Source: JBGPLH01 sp041486365 [NCBI: Thermodesulfobacteriota bacterium] (GTDB taxonomy: Bacteria > JAUYMQ01). From it: DNA of 11,383 nucleotides. This document shows positions 2,418 to 11,383 of the stretch, piece by piece. Numbering within the stretch: the stretch's first letter is position 1; each line of letters starts with the position of its first letter. The notes under the pieces are model-generated. The model searched no databases. It worked only from the letters and a program-made list of their open reading frames with translations, and was not told the DNA's origin. The translations under genes and the position numbers were made by a program. Where the stretch lies: contig JBGPLH010000073.1 of NCBI GenBank assembly GCA_041486365.1, positions 1 to 11,383 of the forward strand, read 5' to 3'.

Positions 2418-3515
2418 GTGCGTGATTCCTTGAGTATCGTCTTTTACGTGAGCGGTCATGGCTTCGGCCACGCGGTGCGCTGCGCCGAGGTGATGCGCGC
2501 GATCCTCGCCCGTGAGCCCGGGGCGCGCATCCACGTCCGCACGAGCGCGCCCGCCTGGCTCTTTCCCGCCGCCGATCGCCTGCGGGTCTCCGAAGCCTCC
2601 CTCGACGTCGGGGTCGTGCAGGCGCACAGCCTCACCCTCGATCCCGAGGCGACCCTTCGCGCGATGGCGGCGATCCTCGATGGCGCGGAGGCGCTCGTCG
2701 ACGCCGAAGTCGGATTTCTTCGCGAGGTGCGGGCGCGCGTTGTGGTGGGTGACATCCCGCCGCCGGCCTTCGAGGCGGCGCGCCGGGCGGGCGTCCCCGG
2801 CATCGCCATCGCGAACTTCTCCTGGGACTGGATCTACCGCGCCTACCTTCCCGCCGAGCCGCGATTCGGACCGCTGATCGACACGATGGCGTCGATGTAC
2901 GCCGCCGCGACGCTGCTCCTCCGGCTCCCCTTTCACGGCGACCTCTCGGTGTTCCCGGTGATCCGTGACATTCCCCTCATCGCGCGCCGGTCGGCCCGGG
3001 GACGGGAAGGAGCGCGGCGGGATCTGGGCCTCGGCGAGGGCCCGGTCGCGCTTCTCACTTTCGGCGGATTGGGGCTTGCCCCGCTGCCGGTTGCCGACAT
3101 CGCCCGCGCGCGCCCGGCCTGGACGTTCCTGGTGCCGTGGGCTCCCGAGGGCGGCGTCCCCGGAAACCTTCGCGTGCTCGCCGGCAGGACGATCCGGCAC
3201 GAGGATCTCGTGGCGGCCGCCGACGTCGTCGTGACGAAGCCCGGCTACGGGATCGTGGCCGAGTGTCTGGCCAACGGCGCGCGGGTGCTCTACACGTCGC
3301 GCGGCGATTTCCCGGAGTACCCGATCCTGGAGGCGGCGGTGCGGCGGCACGCGCGAGCCCGCTACGTGCCCCCCGTGGATCTGCTCGCCGGGAGGATCGG
3401 GAAGGCGCTCGACGACGTGCTGGCGGTGGACGACCCCGTGGAGCGTCTCGCGGATTCCGCCTTCGAGGGAGCGGCCACCGCCGCGGAGGCGATCCTCGGG
3501 CGCGCGGGCGCCTGA
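2418..3515 (+). CDS. GT-B glycosyltransferase-like protein (arabinokinase N-domain type)
   Basis: With the GTG start at 2418 the protein has 365 residues. It opens with SIVFYVSGHGFGHAVR (G13-H18), the glycine/histidine loop of this group. The middle holds VVGDIPPPAFEAA and NFSWDWIY (133-140). The C-terminal half has TFGG (214-217) and the nucleotide-sugar-binding-like TKPGYGIVAE (273-282). This order matches the N-terminal domain of plant L-arabinokinases and related stand-alone bacterial proteins of the UDP-glycosyltransferase/glycogen phosphorylase superfamily. There is no signal peptide or membrane segment, so it is probably cytoplasmic. No kinase domain follows. Donor and acceptor are unknown. 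The start is uncertain: GTG at 2403 and TTG at 2430 are in frame, and GGGAGG lies at 2398-2403. It ends 19 bp before the convergent mini-secretin gene with no T-tract terminator between them. Confidence 0.85.
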   Translation: MRDSLSIVFYVSGHGFGHAVRCAEVMRAILAREPGARIHVRTSAPAWLFPAADRLRVSEASLDVGVVQAHSLTLDPEATLRAMAAILDGAEALVDAEVGFLREVRARVVVGDIPPPAFEAARRAGVPGIAIANFSWDWIYRAYLPAEPRFGPLIDTMASMYAAATLLLRLPFHGDLSVFPVIRDIPLIARRSARGREGARRDLGLGEGPVALLTFGGLGLAPLPVADIARARPAWTFLVPWAPEGGVPGNLRVLAGRTIRHEDLVAAADVVVTKPGYGIVAECLANGARVLYTSRGDFPEYPILEAAVRRHARARYVPPVDLLAGRIGKALDDVLAVDDPVERLADSAFEGAATAAEAILGRAGA

Positions 3516-3534: not shown

Positions 3535-4413
3535 TCAGGGCATCGATCGGGCGCGGACCAGCAGGAAGGTGTCCTCTCCCTCGCGCACGCGCCGTCCGCC
3601 GCGGAGGATCTCGCGCAGCACCTCGCTTCGCTCGCGATTCGAGCTTCCGATCACCACCGCCCCGCCGTCCTTCACCTCGATCTGCGTCGCCGCCTCCGTG
3701 ACCTCGATGCTCGCGCCCCGCGGCGAGAGGTTCCGCATGCGCGGCGTGATCTCGAGCAGGATGCGGTCGTTTCCAATCATGCGCGGATGGACGACGAAGC
3801 CCGTGTCCACCGCCACCCATTGCGTGTTGGTGGCGACGTAGCCGTGGCCCGCCGCGTAGCCGTGGAACACGTCGGTGAAGGGGACCTCGTGTCCCGTGGC
3901 GATCTCGGCCTTCCCGTCGTTCATGACGGTCACGGTCTGCACGGCCCGGGCGCTGGAGCTTCCCCGCTCCGCCCCCGCGGTCGCGAGCGCGGAGAAGCCG
4001 CTGCCGGGGAGGACGACCGGAATGTTTCCGATCTGCCAGCCGCCGGTGCGATAGGCCCAGTCGACCTGGAGGTGCCTCGCGTCGAGATCGCGTTTCGTGA
4101 CCGTCTCGACGGTTATCTGGATGTTCCTCTGCCGGAGGTCCTGCGCCTCGAGCAGCGCCCGGGCCTGCGCCACGCTGGCGGGCGCGTCCACGATGACGAG
4201 CGAGTTGGTGCGCGAATCGACGCTCGCGCGTCCCGTGGGCGAGAGCACGGCGGTCACCGGGCCGTAGAGCTCCTCGGCGACCCGGTACTTCATCTTATAG
4301 ACGAAGACTTCGTCGCCGGCGGCGGCCCGGACGGGAGCTGCGGGAACGAGCGAGGTCAGAACGAGGAGAAGGACGGCGGCCAGGATGCGCGCCGTGCCCG
4401 ATCGCTTCGGCAT
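3535..4413 (-). CDS. Exported short secretin-domain protein
   Basis: The 292-residue protein has a Sec signal peptide (hydrophobic run at about 10-28, cleavage near PVRA|AAG). A small N1-like secretin domain follows at about 36-92 (SVDSRTNSLVIVDAPASVAQ). A secretin-like region runs from about 97 to 288: VQTVTVMNDGKAEIATGHEV, then DTGFVVHPRMIGNDRILLEI and IEVKDGGAVVIGSS. Full secretins such as PilQ or GspD are typically 550-750 residues and carry N0 and several N domains. Here the stretch between N1 and the secretin strands is very short, so a complete gated channel is doubtful. The ATG at 4413 follows AAAGGGAG (4421-4428) with 7 nt spacing. It lies 62 bp downstream of the GH84 gene on the same strand but has its own likely promoter. 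No pilus or type II secretion genes are nearby. Its role is unknown; it may be an outer-membrane-associated or periplasmic secretin remnant. Confidence 0.85.
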   Translation of the reverse strand: MPKRSGTARILAAVLLLVLTSLVPAAPVRAAAGDEVFVYKMKYRVAEELYGPVTAVLSPTGRASVDSRTNSLVIVDAPASVAQARALLEAQDLRQRNIQITVETVTKRDLDARHLQVDWAYRTGGWQIGNIPVVLPGSGFSALATAGAERGSSSARAVQTVTVMNDGKAEIATGHEVPFTDVFHGYAAGHGYVATNTQWVAVDTGFVVHPRMIGNDRILLEITPRMRNLSPRGASIEVTEAATQIEVKDGGAVVIGSSNRERSEVLREILRGGRRVREGEDTFLLVRARSMP

Positions 4414-8305: not shown

Positions 8306-8382
8306 GGCTGCGTAGCTCAGGCGGTTAGAGCGACGGTCTCATAATCCGTAGGTCGGTGGTTCGAGTCCACCCGCAGCCACCA
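8306..8382 (+). tRNA. tRNA with CAT anticodon, probably elongator tRNA-Met
   Basis: A complete 77-nt cloverleaf is visible. The acceptor GGCTGCG pairs with CGCAGCC; the D arm is GCTC/GAGC; the anticodon loop is CTCATAA; the T arm is GGTGG-TTCGAGT-CCACC; the discriminator is A and CCA is encoded. The G1-C72 pair and the lack of three GC pairs in the anticodon stem exclude the initiator. CAT could also mean tRNA-Ile2, whose C34 TilS changes to lysidine. The acceptor pairs at 4-69 (T-A) and 5-68 (G-C) resemble E. coli elongator tRNA-Met (T-A, A-T) more than Ile2 (C-G, C-G). In the anticodon stem ACGGT/TCCGT, positions 31 and 39 are a T-T mismatch. Confidence 0.95.
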
Positions 8383-8712: not shown

Positions 8713-9462
8713 ATGGTTTTCATTCGCGCCAGGTGGGCCGTCGTGCGCCTGATCCTGGGTCTCTTACTGTGCCTGAGCGCTGCAAGCGCCAGGGCCATGA
8801 CTTTCACCGCCAACGGAGTGGCCAACACGGGGACGAAGCCGACGATCGACTTCGGCTACACGCCGACGAACGCCACGGCCGGAACTCTCACCATCACGGT
8901 CACGAACACCACCCCCAGCCCGCTACCGGGCGGAGCCTTCACGGGGTTGGCCTTCAACGTGCCGACGAACGTGACCGGGCTCACGGGCTTCGGCTTCTCG
9001 TCCACGGACAAGGGCGCCAAGAAGTTCACGTCGTTCATCAACGTCGATTCCGTCGTCGCGGGAAACCTGGGTGGCTTCGACGTCGGGATATCGAACGGGG
9101 GCCTGTCGGGGAAGAGCAAGGGCAAGAAGGGAAAGTCGAGCTCGGCGACGGCCTTCACCATCGATGGGGGCAAGGCCAAGGACGGCGTCGACCCGACCTT
9201 CCGCGCGACCTTCACGCTCGGCGTGACCGGCAACGGCATGGACGCGCTGAACGTCATGAACTTCCTGTCCGAGTTCTCCGCGGGGAGCGGCGGGGGCTGC
9301 TGCGAGAACTTCGCCGTTCGGTTTCTGGGGGTGAACAGCTCCAACGGAACGAGCGACTTCGCGGTGCCCAACCAGCCTCCCTCGAGCGTTCCGGAGCCCT
9401 CCTCGATCCTTCTCCTTGGAGCCGGCCTGGCGGGGGCGGTGCGCGCCTTACGGCGCCGCTAG
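8713..9462 (+). CDS. PEP-CTERM sorting-domain exported protein
   Basis: The 249-residue protein has a signal peptide (hydrophobic core at about 9-25, cleavage near SARA|MTF). A low-complexity body rich in Thr, Asn, Gly and Ser appears to be beta-sandwich. The tail is a textbook PEP-CTERM: VPEPSS (226-231), a short hydrophobic helix and the basic end RALRRR. Such proteins are exported by Sec, cut by an exosortase (EpsH family) and usually linked to exopolysaccharide or biofilm surfaces. No exosortase gene is present here, which is normal because substrates are scattered. The body carries a basic insert, GKSKGKKGKSSS (133-144), and a Cys pair (GGGCCENF, 196-197). The start ATG at 8713 follows GGGAGG with 6 nt spacing. 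The precise role of the body domain is not recognised. It is flanked by terminators and so probably monocistronic. Confidence 0.93.
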   Translation: MVFIRARWAVVRLILGLLLCLSAASARAMTFTANGVANTGTKPTIDFGYTPTNATAGTLTITVTNTTPSPLPGGAFTGLAFNVPTNVTGLTGFGFSSTDKGAKKFTSFINVDSVVAGNLGGFDVGISNGGLSGKSKGKKGKSSSATAFTIDGGKAKDGVDPTFRATFTLGVTGNGMDALNVMNFLSEFSAGSGGGCCENFAVRFLGVNSSNGTSDFAVPNQPPSSVPEPSSILLLGAGLAGAVRALRRR

Positions 9463-9543: not shown

Positions 9544-10983
9544 ATGCTTCAGGCTCGAATCAGGCAGGCGATCAAGCGTTACGCGCTCCTGCGCGCCGGC
9601 GACACGGTCGTGGTGGCGGTTTCCGGTGGACCCGACTCCGTGGCGTTGCTCCACGTCCTGGCGCTCCTCGCGCGGAGCGAAGGATGGAAGCTCCACGCCG
9701 CGCACCTGCATCATGGGATCCGCGGCCCCGAGGCCGACGCGGACGAAGATCTGGTGGTGGCCATGGCCGCGCGCCTCGGGATCCCGGTGAGCGTGAGCAG
9801 GCTCGATCCGGCCGTCCTTCGGGGCGCCGCGCTGGAAGCGCGGGCCAGGCGGGCGCGGTACGCGTTCCTCCACGAGGTGGCCCGGCGGACGGGCGCGTCG
9901 CGGATCGCCACCGGCCACACGCGTGACGACCAGGCCGAGACGGTGCTGCTCCGGCTCCTGCGCGGAAGCGGGGCCAGGGGCCTCTCGGGCATCCAGCCCG
10001 CACGCGAGGACGGGGTGGTGCGGCCGCTCCTCCTCGCTTCCCGGGCGGAGGTGATCGAATTCCTGGGTCGCGGAAAGGTCGCGTTCCGCCAGGACGCGAC
10101 GAACCATGACCTGCGTTACCTGCGCAACCGCGTGCGGCACGAGGTGCTCCCGCTCCTGCGCGCGCTCTCGCCGAGAATCGACGAGCGCCTCGCGGCCCTC
10201 GCCGATGCGCTGCGCGCCGACGCGGAATGGCTCGAAGCGTCCGCGACGCGCGCGCGTCGGGAACGGAACATCGCGCCGGGACGGCCGATCGACCGCACAT
10301 GGCTCCGCGATCTCCCGGAAGCGATCCGGCGTCGCGTGGTGGGCGCCGCGCTTATCGAGGGGGGCACGCCGCCGGATCGCGTGGCGGGGGCGATCGTCGC
10401 GATCCTCGATACGCTGCGGGAGGAGGGCGCGACGCGATCCGTCCCTCTGCGGGGCGGCAACGTGGCGCGGGTCGATCCGGCGGAAGTCCGTGTCGAGAGA
10501 GGTGCGCGACCAGAGCTCAGGTCGTCCTTCGATCTTCCGCTCGCGGCGCCCGGCGTGACGCATCTCCCCGATGGTCGTTCCATCGAAGCAAAAGTGGGAG
10601 AGAGCGGGCCGCCGGCGGGGGCGCGGGAGGATGGCGCTAATCGCCCTTCCAGTGGGGAGGGCTGGCCGCCGGCCGACCATCCAACTGCCTTCTCCGCCTG
10701 CTTCGACGCCGCCGCGATTGTCGCGCCGCTGCGCGTGCGAAGCCGCCGGCCCGGTGATCGCATTCGGCCCCGCGGGTTCGGAGGCACCAGGAAGGTCCAG
10801 GATCTGCTCTCGGAGGCGCTCCTCCCTCCGGGCGAGCGGGATCGGGTCCCGATCGTGGTGATGGGCGAGGAGATCCTCTGGATCGGGGGCCTGCGCGCTG
10901 GAGAGATTGCGGTACCGGGACCGGGACCCGGGAGGCTACTGGTCCTGACGCTCCGGCCACCGGATCCCACCCGGGGTCTCTGA
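9544..10983 (+). CDS. tilS: tRNA(Ile)-lysidine synthase
   Basis: TilS uses ATP and lysine to convert C34 of tRNA-Ile2 (CAU) to lysidine, changing decoding from Met to Ile; it is essential in most bacteria. The 479 residues contain the PP-loop SGGPDS (27-32), HLHHGIRG (54-61), the adenylation-site segment GHTRDDQAET (124-133) and RNRVRHEVLPLL (194-205). The C-terminal TilS domain carries RRPGDRIRPRGFGG (about 401-414) and ends shortly after. Length is ordinary for the long form. A Gly/Pro-rich stretch (about residues 355-380) separates the last two parts. The ATG at 9544 begins a normal family N-terminus (MLQARIRQAIKRY) but lacks a Shine-Dalgarno sequence and lies 6 nt after a -10-like box, so leaderless translation is likely. 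ftsH follows on the same strand, as in many genomes, but the frequent hpt gene between them is absent. Confidence 0.97.
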   Translation: MLQARIRQAIKRYALLRAGDTVVVAVSGGPDSVALLHVLALLARSEGWKLHAAHLHHGIRGPEADADEDLVVAMAARLGIPVSVSRLDPAVLRGAALEARARRARYAFLHEVARRTGASRIATGHTRDDQAETVLLRLLRGSGARGLSGIQPAREDGVVRPLLLASRAEVIEFLGRGKVAFRQDATNHDLRYLRNRVRHEVLPLLRALSPRIDERLAALADALRADAEWLEASATRARRERNIAPGRPIDRTWLRDLPEAIRRRVVGAALIEGGTPPDRVAGAIVAILDTLREEGATRSVPLRGGNVARVDPAEVRVERGARPELRSSFDLPLAAPGVTHLPDGRSIEAKVGESGPPAGAREDGANRPSSGEGWPPADHPTAFSACFDAAAIVAPLRVRSRRPGDRIRPRGFGGTRKVQDLLSEALLPPGERDRVPIVVMGEEILWIGGLRAGEIAVPGPGPGRLLVLTLRPPDPTRGL

Positions 10984-11018: not shown

Positions 11019-11047
11019 TTGTCAGCCCCGGGGGTGCATGTTATTTA
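11019..11047 (+). promoter_or_regulatory. Likely promoter of ftsH
   Basis: TTGTCA (11019-11024), a 17-nt spacer and TATTTA (11042-11047) form the best -35/-10 pair in the tilS-ftsH gap, in a conspicuously AT-rich patch (11038-11060). The start near 11054 would give a leader of about 150 nt. No sigma-32-type heat-shock consensus was recognised. Confidence 0.5.
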
Positions 11048-11110
11048 AACGTATACAAAAGGGTTTTGGGCACGGCTCACCCGTTCCCCAGGACCGGCCG
11101 ATAACCTCTC

Positions 11111-11169
11111 TGGGCCCGAAGGGTTGCGTCTGCTCCACGAAGCGGACGGTGGCGCCCTTCGGGAGCCCA
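11111..11169 (+). promoter_or_regulatory. Long stem-loop in the ftsH leader
   Basis: CCCGAAGGG (11115-11123) pairs perfectly with CCCTTCGGG (11155-11163). TGGG/CCCA extends the base past a two-nt bulge (11111-11114 with 11166-11169). CGTC/GACG (11127-11130 with 11145-11148) forms an inner stem. An alternative CCCAG/CTGGG pairing just upstream would compete with the base. It ends 21 nt before the ribosome-binding site and has no T-tract, so it is a leader structure rather than a terminator. It matches no RNA family I recognise. Confidence 0.5.
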
Positions 11170-11190
11170 TCCCGGTGGGTCGTCGGCTCC

Positions 11191-11196
11191 AGGAGG
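11191..11196 (+). promoter_or_regulatory. Perfect Shine-Dalgarno sequence that sets an ATT start for ftsH
   Basis: AGGAGG is followed by 7 nt (AACCTGA) and then ATT at 11204. An in-frame TGA occupies 11201-11203, so the reading frame cannot begin further left. The next usable codon, GTG at 11228, is 31 nt from the site and would remove conserved N-terminal residues. Confidence 0.85.
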
Positions 11197-11203
11197 AACC
11201 TGA

Positions 11204-11383
11204 ATTAACCCCTTCTATAAGAACCTGGTGCTCTGGATCGTCATCCTTGTGATGACCCTTCTCCTCTTCAAGGTCGTCACCCAGCCGAGCGCTCACGACG
11301 CCAAGATCGATTACAGCCAGCTCATCGAGCACCTGAACAAGGGCGATGTCTCGGAGGTGACGATCCAGGATCAGGCGATCGAA
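11204..11383 (+). CDS. ftsH: ATP-dependent membrane zinc protease FtsH, 5' part
   Basis: Only the first 60 residues are in the window. The product begins MNPFYKNLVLWIVI (reading the start ATT as Met), enters a transmembrane helix (about 8-25) and then the periplasmic domain with IDYSQLIEHLNKGDVSEVTI. This is the usual FtsH N-terminus of a short cytoplasmic tail, TM1 and a Y-S-x-hydrophobic motif. FtsH is a hexameric inner-membrane AAA+ protease that removes damaged membrane proteins and some regulators. The AAA and protease domains lie beyond the edge. The start codon appears to be ATT, set by AGGAGG at 7 nt and an in-frame TGA just before. Its position after tilS supports the assignment. A sequencing error turning ATG into ATT is the main alternative. 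Confidence 0.88.
   Translation, partial: MNPFYKNLVLWIVILVMTLLLFKVVTQPSAHDAKIDYSQLIEHLNKGDVSEVTIQDQAIE

Follow-up and report, generated by a model that had tools for sequence, protein, structure and literature searches.

The window, by which we mean the whole 11,383-nt stretch of DNA analyzed here, has in its final 180 bases the beginning of an ftsH gene that leaves the window at codon 60, and the question that this locus raises is at which codon translation of that gene starts. The original prediction placed the start at the rare codon AUU, 180 nt from the window end. The following features bear on the question:

9544-10983, plus strand: tilS, tRNA-Ile lysidine synthetase (TIGR02432, 5.5e-51; TilS_C, 1.2e-16)
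11038-11208, plus strand: open frame of 56 codons, with a weak coding signal and no Shine-Dalgarno match; its stop codon TAA (11206-11208) overlaps the ATT by one base
11191-11196, plus strand: Shine-Dalgarno sequence AGGAGG, 7 nt (11197-11203) ahead of the ATT
11201-11203, plus strand: TGA in the ftsH frame, immediately 5' of the ATT, closing the frame
11204-11206, plus strand: ATT, the proposed ftsH initiation codon, homologous to the GTG, TTG or ATG start in most other ftsH genes read
11204-11383, plus strand: 5' part of ftsH, 60 codons (PF06480 FtsH_ext; NCBIfam NF008004)
11228-11230, plus strand: in-frame GTG, a rival start with no Shine-Dalgarno match that would give a product 8 residues shorter

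The ftsH start site and its surroundings

Translation from the ATT begins INPFYKNLVLWIVILVMTLLLF and, continued to the end of the window, reads INPFYKNLVLWIVILVMTLLLFKVVTQPSAHDAKIDYSQLIEHLNKGDVSEVTIQDQAIE. Of the 59 residues that follow the ATT, residues 7-59 match the FtsH_ext domain (PF06480, 1.7e-10, above the cut-off), and the protein has both the N-terminal hydrophobic helix and the FtsH_ext domain that characterize the FtsH protease, in agreement with the earlier assignment of an FtsH N-terminus to this frame. The NCBIfam FtsH model NF008004 also matches the N-terminus (7.9e-7), a score far under the whole-protein cut-off because just 59 residues are available. With the window ending at codon 60, the AAA+ ATPase and M41 zinc protease domains expected of FtsH would lie beyond it. 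The AGGAGG with its 7-nt spacer and the TGA that closes the frame directly upstream were both found where the original prediction had put them. The hexamer itself shows no enrichment across the window (12 copies on both strands vs 8.04 expected); the probability that one of the five plus-strand copies sits by chance ahead of a given site, at any of five permitted spacings, is about 0.002. The cspA gene in the same window is preceded by the same motif at the same spacing (AGGAGG at 169-174, ATG at 182).

When the tilS-ftsH loci are compared, the ATT occupies the column of the start codon of most homologues, right before a conserved Asn/Ser. After the ATT, the G+C content at codon positions 1, 2 and 3 of the ftsH frame is 0.58, 0.22 and 0.88, a coding pattern, whereas in the same frame 5' of the ATT it is 0.60, 0.74 and 0.55, and the three-base coding periodicity is absent. 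The locus combines two features of an AUU-initiated gene, namely, a strong Shine-Dalgarno sequence at good spacing (AGGAGG at 7 nt) and an ATT at the homologous start position behind a closed upstream frame. Given the homologous position, the perfect Shine-Dalgarno sequence, the closed frame and the onset of coding periodicity, AUU at 11204 is the best reading of the ftsH start, as originally predicted. We consider it fairly probable that translation begins there, with low FtsH synthesis and an IF3-dependent FtsH level as the presumed outcome; initiation at the AUU itself is read from the sequence.

The additional claim that no ATG, GTG or TTG could replace the ATT holds upstream, where the TGA closes the frame, but not downstream, where GTG 11228, GTG 11249 and ATG 11252 are all in frame. 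Among these three candidates, only GTG 11228 precedes the hydrophobic stretch.

The end of tilS is separated from the ATT by a 220-nt gap, and the tilS-ftsH order, a common, not obligatory, neighborhood, recurs among the homologous loci. A simple scan detected neither a promoter nor a terminator 5' of ftsH, and the fold z-score of the ftsH leader (-0.95) gave no sign of special structure. Within the gap, a stretch of 46 bases (11030-11075) is only 46% G+C inside a window of 70% G+C and might be a promoter region; no sigma-70 match was found in it. An Rfam scan of the window returned nothing besides a tRNA. Other features of the window are:

2451-3515: open frame (about 354 aa) that matched neither Pfam nor NCBIfam at E 0.001, glycosyltransferase-like by eye only
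3535-4413, minus strand: short secretin-like protein, 292 aa, with Secretin_N and Secretin matches
8306-8382: tRNA-Met
8713-9462: protein with a PEP-CTERM sorting motif (PF07589, 1.5e-6), slightly downstream of the tRNA-Met

Start codons of ftsH in other genomes

To look for relatives of the window, TilS was searched in the 18 genomes behind the homologous loci and in phylum samples built around genomes labeled Acidobacteria (119 genomes), Bacillota (81), Deltaproteobacteria (79 and 59, two samples of one phylum with mostly overlapping genomes), Polyangia (57) and Nitrospirales (61). No close relative was found in this set: the best TilS match had 43% identity over most of the length, identity over short stretches reached at most 52%, and the 57 genomes of the Polyangia sample yielded no match at the strict cut-off. 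A search with AnmK in 12 further genomes gave two matches at 44-46%. Against viral contigs, TilS had three matches, remote or partial, and the FtsH N-terminus had none. In the distant homologues, the ATT is not conserved at the ftsH start.

Start codons were counted in 80 genomes from five phylum samples centered on loci titled Acidobacteria, Bacillota, Deltaproteobacteria, Polyangia and Nitrospirales. An ftsH gene was found in 78 of the 80 at E 1e-120, and the best copy per genome was taken (loci L105-L182). The genes ffh and nusA, whose N-termini allow homology anchoring, served as controls. For ffh, 71 of 75 hits were read, leaving out G343 and G339, and also G109 (hit cut at its C-terminus by a contig end) and G379 (partial hit); for nusA, 69 of 78 were read, leaving out nine in which the match started inside the gene (seven in the Polyangia sample). 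The start was defined as the ATG, GTG or TTG nearest to the homology anchor, with only these three codons considered. For ftsH, this rule placed the start on the anchor in 60 of the 78 genes and within four codons of it in 16, with two out of range. Because the rule could overlook an AUN codon beside an ATG, GTG or TTG, the ftsH anchor codons were inspected by eye.

By the nearest-start rule, ftsH starts with TTG in 32 genes, GTG in 23 and ATG in 21, with two unassigned. When the latter are taken as ATG by eye (the ATG lies two codons on in L110 and upstream in L116), the ATG count becomes 23/78, against 55/78 for GTG or TTG. By comparison, the starts of ffh are ATG 60, GTG 9 and TTG 2 (n=71), and those of nusA are ATG 60, TTG 5 and GTG 2, with two unassigned (n=69); for nusA, the rule seems to miscall some ATG starts as non-ATG (in L253, an ATG lies two codons before the GTG), which biases against the contrast with ftsH. 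With 23 ATG starts for ftsH, Fisher's test gives 6e-12 vs ffh and 7e-13 vs nusA, values that apply to related genomes and are uncorrected for phylogeny. Within genomes, pairs with a non-ATG ftsH and an ATG control outnumber the reverse by 43:3 for ffh (n=70) and 40:2 for nusA (n=68), also uncorrected for phylogeny. A stricter comparison, independent of the start rule, points the same way: when each frame is followed upstream of the start as far as the previous stop or the limit of the retrieved sequence (about 250 nt in the regions cut), no in-frame ATG is encountered in 45/78 ftsH genes, compared to 10/71 for ffh and 1/69 for nusA. All five samples show the contrast in this direction, with GTG or TTG starts in ftsH vs ffh of 18/20 vs 0/17, 12/14 vs 8/13, 9/15 vs 1/15, 9/14 vs 1/12 and 7/15 vs 1/14; it is weakest in the Bacillota sample (12/14 vs 8/13), where ffh itself often has a non-ATG start. 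Hence, non-AUG starts are far more frequent in ftsH than in the ffh and nusA genes of these genomes.

A rule that a weak start requires a strong Shine-Dalgarno sequence is not established by the census: a match of at least 5 nt precedes 38 of the 55 GTG/TTG starts of ftsH and 10 of the 21 ATG starts, with no clear difference (P 0.11). In the separate set of loci L001-L104, which shares some genomes with the census, ftsH was present in 74 of the 104 loci, with starts GTG 31, TTG 16 and ATG 16, and with none in range in 11, most of which have a longer upstream open frame when inspected by eye.

Some ftsH genes leave the three ordinary start codons altogether. In two soil Chloroflexi MAGs from one sampling series (L042, 6362-6364; L044, 6368-6370), where ftsH lies behind tilS, a single CTG and no ATG, GTG or TTG codon precede the hydrophobic stretch; two stop codons come directly before this CTG in L044, and in L042 a stop codon lies nine codons ahead of it. 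Since only CTG is left in these two genes, the window ftsH is not alone in departing from the ordinary starts. A second FtsH-like frame lies on the opposite strand in L044, and the ATG that the start rule assigned to this locus belongs to that frame; the tilS-linked copy is the one with CTG. A third candidate, L040, was dropped because a TTG lies five codons upstream of its CTG. None of the 78 census genes has ATT on the anchored column; L160 has ATC there, right after an ATG. When 395 genomes were searched with a pattern for ftsH-like genes that admitted ATN and CTN starts, 14 matches were obtained: six were ftsH, all with ATG (L328-L332 and L336), and eight proved not to be ftsH once translated. 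This search has low sensitivity, and little can be concluded from the absence of AUU among its matches. Taken together, this survey of other bacteria suggests that weak start codons are common in ftsH, a tendency with which the AUU is in keeping.

Alternative readings of the ATT

The main rival to an AUU start is that the gene truly starts with ATG and that the ATT reflects a single-base error in the consensus or a minor variant of the strain, which we regard as unlikely, albeit a serious possibility. ATG and ATT are one base apart, no second ftsH with ATT was found, and the genomes searched yielded no close relative. Against this reading, the long frames of the window that were identified as genes are intact, with no hint of indel errors, and ATG is the start in just 23 of the 78 homologous ftsH genes, whereas a change from GTG or TTG to ATT would take two errors.

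A start at GTG 11228, with the ATT and the next seven codons belonging to a 5' leader, is very improbable. This GTG is in frame, and GTG is a common ftsH start (23/78); however, no Shine-Dalgarno match of at least 3 nt was found in the 17 bases scanned upstream of it, and the AGGAGG is 31 nt away. The shortened protein would lose NPFYKNL, a segment alignable with homologous N-termini, and would have no basic residue left ahead of the hydrophobic stretch. We therefore judge GTG 11228 unlikely to be a usable alternative start.

Reinitiation at the AUU after termination of the 56-codon frame at its TAA, for which the stop/start overlap (ATTAA) and a frame open from ATG 11038 could be adduced, has hardly any likelihood, given that ATG 11038 lacks a Shine-Dalgarno match, the periodicity of the frame is weak (0.52/0.57/0.73), and the overlap, which would be abolished by ATG in place of ATT, may be a by-product; the frame itself is probably due to chance.

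Proposed mechanism and comparison with known starts

The initiator tRNA pairs with AUU despite the mismatch at the third base, a strong Shine-Dalgarno sequence keeps the 30S subunit in position, and IF3 destabilizes near-cognate start complexes, so that output is low. At the preferred start of the window ftsH, the AUU at 11204 would be decoded by the initiator tRNA as formyl-methionine, with the perfect AGGAGG at good spacing enabling initiation. The AUU would be expected to hold FtsH synthesis low, and the FtsH level might then be set by the strictness with which IF3 rejects near-cognate codons, a tie to IF3 and initiation fidelity drawn by analogy with infC and pcnB. The benefit would most likely be a low, steady supply of FtsH, with sensitivity to IF3 being a possible consequence rather than the purpose.

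Under this scheme, the AUU would be an extreme case of the wider habit of weak starts in ftsH. Tentatively, the use of weak codons by ftsH across phyla (UUG, GUG, rarely CUG, and here AUU) could represent a conserved throttle on membrane proteolysis, whereby the supply of FtsH tracks start-codon stringency, as set by IF3 and the state of the initiator tRNA, with AUU as its extreme form; we consider this broader proposal doubtful. FtsH is described as a quality-control protease that, in E. coli, adjusts LpxC and hence lipopolysaccharide synthesis. If the start codon limits FtsH synthesis, with AUU in this role in some lineages, the protease level would be coupled to initiation fidelity. The contrast of ftsH with ffh and nusA is a concrete pattern that is open to checking.

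AUU starts are already known as a kind, and the window ftsH is likely a new instance. Among the matches listed for the terms used in one literature collection, we found no report linking bacterial ftsH to non-AUG starts nor, under these terms, any description of ftsH favoring weak starts across phyla. In our view, this preference, which rests on our own count, is a more interesting result than the AUU itself.

The classical cases are E. coli infC, which encodes IF3, and pcnB, where AUU starts are reported to limit expression (PMC1780047, PMC9410913). The window ftsH resembles these genes in its proposed chromosomal AUU start, which would likewise limit expression. The starts of infC and pcnB have been proven experimentally, and infC feeds back on IF3, whereas the window ftsH encodes a membrane protease and is known from sequence.

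In Staphylococcus aureus, near-cognate starts with an extended Shine-Dalgarno sequence are described for cvfC1 (AUU), ccpN (AUA) and infC (AUA), with reporter output at about 10% of that of AUG in minimal medium and, for ccpN, up to 30% in rich medium (PMC13009471). These genes and the window ftsH are alike in placing a near-cognate start behind a strong Shine-Dalgarno sequence. The S. aureus starts were mapped by Ribo-Ret, and the AUU of cvfC1 is reported to be conserved among staphylococci, whereas the AUU of the window ftsH is read from one sequence.

The pncA gene (bbe22) of Borrelia burgdorferi is reported to start with AUU, with databases listing a shorter protein from a downstream start (PMC13398362). 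This AUU was missed by annotation, and the downstream start truncates the protein; the window ftsH is open to the same mistake, in that annotation admitting just ATG, GTG and TTG would misplace its start, here to GTG 11228. The Borrelia AUU, in a gene other than ftsH, is described as backed by genetics, biochemistry and structure. For one further published gene, also not ftsH, the AUU is presented as deduced from sequence since the full-length protein requires it. The nearest counterparts of the window start are the GTG and TTG starts of ftsH in our census, which share with it both the gene and the start column, the AUU being weaker and rarer than these ordinary starts.
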